Assembly (NCBI RefSeq): GCF_022026395.1
Contig: NZ_CP041767.1
Coordinates: 2,946,501-3,010,500, forward strand
DNA from: Brevibacillus brevis
GTDB lineage: Bacteria > Bacillota > Bacilli > Brevibacillales > Brevibacillaceae
Direction: 5' to 3'
DNA length: 64,000 bases
Shown: positions 45,557 to 47,536 of the stretch, in pieces
Numbering within the stretch: the first letter of the stretch is position 1
How the letters are laid out: the number at the start of each line of letters is the position of its first letter
Notes under the pieces: model-generated
The model's input: only the letters and a program-made list of their open reading frames with translations
What the model was told of the DNA's origin: nothing
Database searches by the model: none
Made by a program: the position numbers and the translations under genes

Positions 45557-46951
45557 ATGGGGGGACTGCTAGGGACATTGCACCAGTCGCTGCGGTCAGA
45601 AATCGAACAACATCGGCGAGCGCGCGGTTATACATTAAGCAAACTAGGGGATTTAACTGGTATTAATCCGGGGACATTGAGCGAGATTCTAAATGGGAAT
45701 CCACCTCGGGCTATCACAATAGGTCAATTAGATGCGCTCGCTTCGGTGTTTGGCTACGAGCCAGGCTGGATGTATGAACTATATCCCGATGAATGTTTAT
45801 ATGAAGGGAAAATTTCGCGCCCCCGATTGATACCTTATTTGATTCGAAGCGCTGAGAATAGGCGAAAGGATTGCATTGAAGCTGTTGCCTCCCAATTGTT
45901 GGAGAATCCCAAAAATATTTCCATCCTTTTTACTGTGGCAGAGCAATTATATGAGGAGGGAAAACTGGGAAAGGCGGTGCCATTCTATGAGTACGTAATT
46001 GAGAACGAGAAAGATAGCTACTCAACCCAGTTTGTGATGAGTCACTACCGATTATTTCAGGCAATTCTCGGGACAAATGCCGATGAAAATGAGAAGGCTG
46101 TTATTCGCTTTTCATTATATCGAAAGCGATTACCCGAAACGGATCAATTAGACGCCTTATTAAATTTGGCGAAGGTTTGTTTCACTTTGCAAAAATGGAG
46201 TGAAGCAGAAACTTACGCAGATGAGCTACGAGAGCTTTCCAAAATTATTTATCAAGATAAGCTGCAAAAACGCAGAAAAAATCGAGCGGCAGAGTTGATA
46301 AAAACAGAACGCCCACTCGTCTACTACTATGGAATGGGTTATTTATATAAAGGATTAGTCTTACAGATGCAAGGCGCTTATTCACACTCGAAAGAATATG
46401 TACAAGCATACGCCGATTTATATTGGTTTGAACTTCTGGACGATGAAGGGTTACGAATCGTTGAGCGGTTTGCTGTCTTTGCGAAAGCGAATTTTTACAC
46501 ACTGGAAGTATTAATGGGAAATGAAGATATCATTAAGGAATACACCGACTATCTGGCGGAGCAGCCTGATGAAATACTTCCGGGCCTCGTTACAATTATG
46601 GAAGCTGCTAATAAATATCATTTTTGTGTCGATGAGGTTTTATTACGCCTCTCTGAAGATATTGGTAGATTCCATGAACGAACATTGTTGGTTAATATGG
46701 TTCAGCACCTCCAATATCGATATCAGAAAGCAATATATGATTTTACAAAGTGGCGCATTGAAAGTGGACTCAATGAAACCCTGCACTGTTTCGTACTATC
46801 GAATTTGATGAATCGACATTATGATGCTCTGCAATGTGTACAGTTGTTTGAAAAATATCGACATCTTGCTTCTCCATCACAGATTCTCCAATATCAAGCC
46901 ATTGTAATTGGAGAGAAGAAGGCTGAAGCTACATTTATAAACGAGTTGTAG
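45557..46951 (+). CDS. HTH-tetratricopeptide receptor/regulator (RRNPP type)
   Basis: The 464-residue protein has an XRE-type HTH at the N-terminus (about 10-70, SKLGDLTGINPGTLSEILNG) and then a long helical region with tetratricopeptide-like repeats (about 100-450, such as VAEQLYEEGKLGKAVPFYEYVI and KVCFTLQKWSEAETYADELREL). This is the build of peptide-pheromone receptors NprR, PlcR and AimR. A gene for a small exported peptide starts 55 bases downstream on the same strand, as expected for such pairs. AAAAGGGTGATCC precedes the ATG. DNA targets are unknown; self-control is likely. Confidence 0.88.
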   Translation: MGGLLGTLHQSLRSEIEQHRRARGYTLSKLGDLTGINPGTLSEILNGNPPRAITIGQLDALASVFGYEPGWMYELYPDECLYEGKISRPRLIPYLIRSAENRRKDCIEAVASQLLENPKNISILFTVAEQLYEEGKLGKAVPFYEYVIENEKDSYSTQFVMSHYRLFQAILGTNADENEKAVIRFSLYRKRLPETDQLDALLNLAKVCFTLQKWSEAETYADELRELSKIIYQDKLQKRRKNRAAELIKTERPLVYYYGMGYLYKGLVLQMQGAYSHSKEYVQAYADLYWFELLDDEGLRIVERFAVFAKANFYTLEVLMGNEDIIKEYTDYLAEQPDEILPGLVTIMEAANKYHFCVDEVLLRLSEDIGRFHERTLLVNMVQHLQYRYQKAIYDFTKWRIESGLNETLHCFVLSNLMNRHYDALQCVQLFEKYRHLASPSQILQYQAIVIGEKKAEATFINEL

Positions 46952-47005
46952 GACGCTGTATCAACAATTACTAAAAAAGATGATAAGTAGAGAGGATGAA
47001 AAAGA

Positions 47006-47125
47006 ATGAAAAATGTATTCCTGGCCCTTCTTCTAACGTTTGGGTTTAGCAGTGGCATCGTTTACGAACCACAAAAGTCTGAGGCCCAACACGTAATTAA
47101 CTATCAGCATGGTGCAGATTTTTAG
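47006..47125 (+). CDS. Phr-like signalling pro-peptide, 39 residues
   Basis: The frame encodes a Lys-Asn start, a hydrophobic core (VFLALLLTFGFSSGIV) and a polar tail ending HVINYQHGADF. The size and plan match Phr, PapR and NprX precursors, which are exported, cut to a short C-terminal peptide and bound by the cognate tetratricopeptide receptor. Candidate mature forms lie in the last 5-8 residues (such as YQHGADF or HGADF); a signal-peptidase-like site near SEAQ is possible. GAGAGGATG precedes the ATG and a strong terminator follows. The gene is below the usual size limit of gene finders. Confidence 0.82.
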   Translation: MKNVFLALLLTFGFSSGIVYEPQKSEAQHVINYQHGADF

Positions 47126-47146: not shown

Positions 47147-47177
47147 AAAAAACATCCTTTCGATAGGATGTTTTTTT
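47147..47177 (+). terminator. Terminator of the receptor/pro-peptide operon
   Basis: AAAACATCCT and AGGATGTTTT with a six-base loop are followed by a run of T. Confidence 0.92.
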
Positions 47178-47305
47178 CTATTCAATTTTTTCTTAGTTGG
47201 TGAATTCTTGCATATTGATTTATAGTTATTAATGTCATATTTTGTAAATCATAGGAGGTGCTTAACATAAAAGGTATCGCAAGTTCATTAGAAAGGGACG
47301 TCTCT

Positions 47306-47536
47306 GTGCACCCAGGAACATCCCCGAAAAGCAAGGGCACGTTCTGGGGCGCGGGAATAGAAGTAAGTCGCCACCACTTGGATCTGGAAACAAGCATCGA
47401 ACAACTACGACAGCAAATGATTGAATTGGCTGGAAAACATGGTCTAACAAGTGACGTAGTGTTGGGGGTAAGCCAGCAATTGGACAAGTATATAGTGATG
47501 GCGCAAAACAACCATAAAGTGGATAGCATTTGGTAA
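47306..47536 (+). CDS. Spo0E-like aspartyl-phosphate phosphatase
   Basis: The C-terminal half carries the Spo0E signature: IEQLRQQMIELAGKHGLTSD then VLGVSQQLDKYIV, with the SQxLD motif that acts on phospho-Asp of Spo0A-type regulators. The start is uncertain. I give the GTG at 47306 behind AAAGGGA (76 residues). The frame opens at a GTG at 47258 that is itself inside AGGAGGTG, and that ideal ribosome site is 6 bases ahead of an in-frame ATA at 47267. It lies next to the pheromone-receptor pair, so a link to sporulation timing is attractive but inferred. Confidence 0.8.
   Translation: MHPGTSPKSKGTFWGAGIEVSRHHLDLETSIEQLRQQMIELAGKHGLTSDVVLGVSQQLDKYIVMAQNNHKVDSIW

Follow-up and report, generated by a model that had tools for sequence, protein, structure and literature searches.

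Whether a receptor gene and the tiny gene behind it on the chromosome of Brevibacillus brevis make up a new signaling system or belong to one already described is the question raised by this locus. NprR-NprX, Rap-Phr and PlcR-PapR are each composed of a TPR receptor and an exported pro-peptide. A preliminary description of the B. brevis DNA had recognized a receptor/pro-peptide pair of this RRNPP kind, which the sequence comparisons support, and had considered it a new one that matched none known, which they do not: the genes form an AloR-AloP-spo0E locus and fall into the family reported by Voichek et al. (2020; PMC7425212), in which Brevibacillus had already been named. We have analyzed the whole stretch of 64,000 nucleotides that contains it (hereafter the window), part of a 6.16-Mb genome, and our analysis indicates that the pair is a member of the known Alo family, to which we add a predicted ligand, a predicted target and a candidate operator (Table 1). 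The genes around the locus look ordinary: the one upstream is of the aminopeptidase P type, and downstream there is a regulator of the GntR/aminotransferase (MocR) type.

Table 1. Features of the alo locus, in positions of the window.
Feature	Position	Strand	Basis
AloR-type receptor (aloR), 464 aa	45557..46951	+	ORF list; HTH_3; model; AloR13 homology
Ribosome-binding region of aloP, AGAGAGGATG	46989..46998	+	Identical in 7 close sequences
aloP, 39-aa pro-peptide MKNVFLALLLTFGFSSGIVYEPQKSEAQHVINYQHGADF, signal-like N-terminus	47006..47125	+	ORF list; conservation
Predicted mature hexapeptide QHGADF	47105..47122	+	Predicted from conservation and analogy with AloP13 SHGRGG
Intrinsic terminator behind aloP	47147..47176	+	Core hairpin identical in 7 close sequences
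Left half-site TATTCAA, candidate AloR operator	47179..47185	+	Predicted from a dyad across promoters
Right half-site TTGCATA, candidate AloR operator	47208..47214	+	Predicted; 6/7 complementary, 22 bp from left half-site
Putative -10 element TATAGT of the spo0E-like promoter	47221..47226	+	Predicted from conservation
spo0E-like gene, 92 aa, probable receptor target, start codon uncertain	47258..47536	+	PF09388

The receptor frame is as the preliminary description had it, a helix-turn-helix (HTH) followed by tetratricopeptide-like helices. Pfam recognized HTH_3 (E 3e-8), at about residues 16-71, and gave a weak match to TPR_2 (20 bits against a cut-off of 27). The AlphaFold2 model (mean pLDDT 86) has an N-terminal HTH and an all-helical TPR-like superhelix. 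No NCBIfam family reached its cut-off. Among the PDB sequences matched with phmmer (6 matches, E up to 10) or with a profile of 13 receptor sequences (10 matches, E up to 10) there was no RRNPP receptor, AimR, NprR and PlcR included; the matches were HTH proteins, TPR proteins (PA4667 and designed ones) and likely chance matches. Structural alignment of the model (Foldseek, VIA-align) gave Z scores of 13-16 with NprR and Rap chains, among them NprR 5dbk_B (Z 15.6, 8.3 A over 319 residues) and RapI 4i1a_B (Z 15.5, 6.8 A over 305 residues), but unrelated TPR proteins of the LGN type aligned better, with Z up to 18.5, so that the fold has not been taken as proof of family. The predicted RRNPP membership of the receptor rests on its homology to AloR.

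Alo systems (the name stands for autoinducer peptide locus) were described in Paenibacillus polymyxa as HTH-TPR receptors (AloR) with AloP pro-peptides of 32-50 aa, and in six of them a spo0E-like gene lies directly behind (Voichek et al., 2020; PMC7425212). According to the same source, AloR homologues are essentially confined to the Paenibacillaceae, Brevibacillus included, and an AloR-AloP pair has been reported on a plasmid of Brevibacillus laterosporus (PMC10075063). The published synthetic AloP13 pro-peptide (23-mer) had a 100% match in one of the 75 genomes of one genus (G419), together with two further matches of 96% and 83% in that genus, and only weak ones (E 0.2-0.8) in 4 of the 100 genomes of a second genus. 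The receptor beside the 100% match and that of the window shared 42.4% identity along 451 aa, or 97% of the query (blastp), above the 30% identity and 80% coverage by which AloR homologues are defined in PMC10075063. This receptor, AloR13, was the best of the 18 matches to the window receptor in its genome (E 4e-112; 42% over 450 aa), and the spo0E-like gene behind AloP13 was 40.5% identical to that of the window over a short alignment (37 aa, E 3e-4). The reverse comparison was less clean, AloR13 matching the four receptors of the window genome with 369, 365, 359 and 351 bits and that of the window ranking third, and we therefore consider the latter as of AloR13 type and not as a strict orthologue.

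Both loci have the order receptor, pro-peptide and spo0E-like gene, and in both the signal sequence opens with MKxVFLxLLL and the C-terminus of the pro-peptide carries an HG core. They differ in the end itself, SHGRGG in AloP13 and QHGADF in the window, and in that the aloP of alo13 overlaps its receptor by 50 nt whereas that of the window begins 54 nt past the receptor stop. With an HTH and a TPR-like domain, a pro-peptide frame directly downstream whose length falls within the published range and a spo0E-like gene, the locus is, judging from its sequence, almost certainly an Alo module. The AloR of the B. laterosporus LMG 15441 plasmid (NZ_CP007807; PMC10075063) is 51.7% identical to the window receptor and is followed by an ORF with a different end, YEHGVGG (L081); unlike that of the window, this locus is plasmid-borne and shows no Spo0E motif within 900 nt.

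The small gene had also been described correctly, as a 39-residue frame with a signal peptide and a terminator of its own. The signal sequence was assessed from hydropathy and charge only. The hairpin of the terminator (-14.6 kcal/mol) was reported by the terminator scan on the minus strand only; its stem is symmetric and a T-run is also present on the plus strand. No match to the small peptide was found in Pfam or NCBIfam. Receptors of the family were present in 18 of the 26 Brevibacillus genomes, and six of them were orthologues of the window receptor at 92-96% identity (the closest named loci being those of B. formosus, 95%, B. porteri, 94%, and B. fortis, 92%). In all seven of these close sequences, the window and the six orthologues above 90% identity in the 26 genomes, the small ORF was found beside the receptor, and in all seven the C-terminus YQHGADF was identical while silent sites varied. 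Over the whole ORF the pN/pS was 0.28, with 0.57 for the linker and 0.06 for the last ten codons, and in the last seven codons pN was 0 and pS 0.286. The mature peptide is most likely QHGADF, its cleavage being placed by comparison and its length taken from AloP13.

We have extended the comparison to 87 receptors. An ORF was counted if it had 380 aa or more and a blastp E no higher than 1e-40, and duplicates over the last 380 residues were removed. Copies that are broken or below this length are thus not in the set, nor are homologues further away (21-31%), several of which have peptide-like ORFs of another type, and most receptors of the Paenibacillus side are absent from the counts. The preliminary description would have given up its reading had the small frame been unconserved beside receptor homologues, which is not the case. 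It is present in all seven close sequences, and a short ORF that begins like a signal peptide and has an HG end, a motif picked after the sequences had been inspected, was next to 56 of the 87, as against 5 of 1740 shuffled downstream regions, some loci extending less than 900 nt past the receptor (166 nt in L094). The remaining 31, including two of the four of the window genome, had no HG peptide ORF; at L068, which is among these, a similar ORF ends in ENGVGG. A strict Spo0E motif was found downstream of 49 receptors and a looser one, which can match unrelated frames (e.g. L034 at 4899), downstream of 54, compared with 35 of the 1740 shuffles.

The family has 28 different C-terminal heptapeptides. 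The receptors with YQHGADF formed a clade of their own (support 1.0), and the sister clade contained 6 receptors with YQHGSDG, NQHGTDA, HQHGTDA or YDHGTEG and 11 without HG peptide. Elsewhere in the tree HGxGG ends were the commonest. Thus the variable peptide end that the preliminary description had expected was found between paralogous receptor clades but not among the seven close sequences, in which the end is invariant and it is the linker that varies. The ends YEHGVGG and YDHGVGG recur across separate receptor clades and an acidic penultimate residue appears outside the clade of the window (L051), so that peptide ends track the receptor tree only broadly. Ends resembling the aromatic one of the window (YEHGAWF, YEHGANW and YEHGAGF at L117, L118 and L123, in genomes G333, G213 and G041 of family f4) were seen beside receptors only 42-44% identical to that of the window.

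The third gene of the module, spo0E-like, lies beyond the part covered by the preliminary description and was omitted from it. PF09388 matched its product with E 1.1e-14 (score 54.5, cut-off 23). The frame has no ATG near its Shine-Dalgarno sequence, a GTG at 47258 overlaps the AGGAGG, and the stretch GGAGGTGCTTAACATAAA at 47253-47274 is identical in the seven close sequences; for these reasons translation may begin at a rare codon.

The DNA from the terminator to spo0E was highly conserved in the seven close sequences. At the spo0E site a scan for sigma-70 promoters gave no consensus match, and the -10 element was assigned from conservation; a TATAGT/TATGGT element was present at 45 of the 49 receptors with the strict Spo0E motif. 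Nineteen non-redundant promoters, left once near-duplicates had been removed together with L119 and L033, two rows that were misplaced, were aligned on the -10. They have inverted half-sites, approximately TATTCCA and TGGGATA, which are separated by 21-23 bp and end 5-6 bp before the -10. The best pair of arms was matched at 0.63, whereas column shuffles gave a mean best of 0.47 (0 of 200 reached the observed value), and with small shifts allowed the pairing was 103, against a mean of 90.8 when the right halves were re-dealt (0 of 2000), both controls leaving the relatedness of the promoters in place. In fixed registers, with the same relatedness, the observed pairing was reached by 19 of 2000 re-dealings (arms at columns 9 and 37) and by 0 of 2000 (the other register). 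In the former register the row of the window pairs at only 2 of 7 positions, as a few others do at 2 or 3, and its 6/7 pairing requires a shift of one base. Such a 6/7 complementarity arises at 0.18% of the window positions (spacers 21-23). In alo13 there are also ATTCC/GGGAT words upstream of spo0E, but they are close together, while in the window the half-site words are about 22 bp apart, so the long spacer is not a feature of every Alo locus.

Based on this dyad, 47179-47214 is a candidate AloR operator, located just upstream of the putative spo0E -10. A motif taken from the close paralogues had been tried as a fixed string; it failed to generalize to the distant loci and was dropped for the dyad. 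Upstream of aloR this motif was not found at any of 87 loci (best 7-11 mismatches over 20 specified positions). The operator pattern, which was derived from alo loci and misses a diverged site behind the last receptor of the tandem cluster described below, had two matches in its own genome, both in alo loci. Over the 26 Brevibacillus genomes it matched 26 times, the matches being spread over 10 genomes, and a reversed control matched 3 times; 21 of the 26 were in alo loci by construction. Three others were located 7-10 kb beyond the tandem cluster (L145 13039, L144 11259 and L146 16146), two of these, and not the third, directly before a spo0E-like gene without adjoining receptor. The last two, both in G008, have no T-run and resemble chance matches. 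No Alo operator was found in the literature searched, which included the main text of PMC7425212. If confirmed, the operator would open the DNA side of Alo regulation to direct tests.

In alo13, spo0E is turned on by AloR and turned off by the peptide, and in B. subtilis SHGRGG lowers a reporter whose spo0E promoter depends on AloR13, from 10 nM upward (PMC7425212). The same parts in the same order imply the same switch in the window, with QHGADF as the ligand and a Spo0E-like phosphatase as the output. We infer its steps as follows, with the direction of regulation carried over from the published alo13 experiments. AloP would be made and exported by means of its signal sequence, and extracellular cleavage would release the C-terminal peptide, most likely QHGADF. 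An oligopeptide permease would bring the peptide back and it would bind to the TPR part of AloR; such a route of export and uptake is the general RRNPP scheme. At low density, in cells without peptide, AloR would activate the spo0E-like promoter, probably from the inverted half-sites, and the phosphatase would keep Spo0A unphosphorylated. At high density the peptide would make AloR release the DNA, spo0E would fall and the programmes driven by Spo0A-P, e.g. sporulation, would be freed. Identity and wiring taken together, an aloR-aloP-spo0E module of the AloR13 type is the probable reading of this locus. A switch tested in Paenibacillus would thereby be placed on a Brevibacillus chromosome with its receptor, predicted hexapeptide, terminator, candidate operator and target gene.

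A new RRNPP subfamily, apart from all those described, could be argued from PDB sequence relatives that are no better than matches to HTH or TPR domains, from the lack of an NCBIfam family at cut-off and from an identity to AloR13 of only 42%. Against this, AloR13 is the best match in its own genome, nearly over the full length and beside the same kind of neighbor gene and an HG peptide, Brevibacillus is listed among the AloR carriers (PMC7425212) and the AloR-AloP pair of the B. laterosporus plasmid is on record (PMC10075063). The comparison with AloR13 refutes a separate subfamily, unless AloR itself were split into several families, and we consider it extremely improbable. We give equally little credit to a true receptor whose small neighbor is a secreted protein with another job, for instance bacteriocin-like or membrane-active, instead of the ligand. 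The HG peptide gene is indeed missing at the 31 receptors mentioned above, but purifying selection is strongest at the last residues (with pN 0 in the last seven), the ends differ broadly by receptor clade, and the homologous end of AloP13 is a tested signal (PMC7425212).

An Alo module with another wiring deserves more attention, although it seems rather unlikely. AloR could repress spo0E in the absence of peptide, or its main targets could be elsewhere, in other alo genes or pathways. In P. polymyxa the addition of AloP13 lowered other aloP genes too (PMC7425212), and the direction is known from alo13 only. On the other hand, only 6 bp separate the candidate site from a -10 downstream of it that has no sigma-70 consensus, as expected of an activator-dependent promoter, and the two matches of the pattern in the genome, a pattern derived from such loci, are both in alo loci. 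The activating AloR13-type module is preferred.

The preferred module resembles the arbitrium system, AimR-AimP-aimX, in the order of receptor, peptide and target and in that AimP lowers the downstream gene (PMC6458997). The AimR operator has 37 nt, in which a 25-bp spacer separates two inverted boxes of 6 bp (PMC6458997), and that proposed here is similar, spanning about 36 bp with 7-bp half-sites approximately 21-23 bp apart. The output differs, being phage lysogeny via aimX in arbitrium and a spo0E-like gene in the window. One could speculate, and we do so tentatively, as we hold it to be somewhat less probable than its contrary, that a flexible AloR dimer bridges the distant half-sites to drive spo0E, that the peptide compacts the dimer and thereby keeps it from reaching both, and that the acidic penultimate residue (ADF, SDG, TDA, TEG) is the specificity code of the Brevibacillus clade of the window. 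If true, the long-spacer operator, which was called unusual for the phage AimR, would be common to a family of bacterial sporulation signaling.

The genome of the window carries three further receptors in tandem at 5.81 Mb (L005, G000:C1:5800000-5816000). The first is accompanied by a peptide ending in NQHGTDA and by spo0E; the other two have no recognizable peptide, and the last one is followed by another spo0E-like gene. Orphan Alo receptors were already known (PMC7425212). Alo receptors with 51-56% identity (L113, L119) appear also in a genome of a family other than that of the window (G120), two of the four with HG peptides, and may reflect transfer, mislabelling or contamination. Finally, the B. 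laterosporus phage SecTim467 (L142, KT151957, 64486-71790) encodes an AloR homologue (42%) with an annotated Spo0E upstream. None of the ORFs listed behind this homologue ended in HG, and the small ORF annotated there was considered as an AloP and rejected. This may perhaps be a phage orphan receptor beside a sporulation gene.
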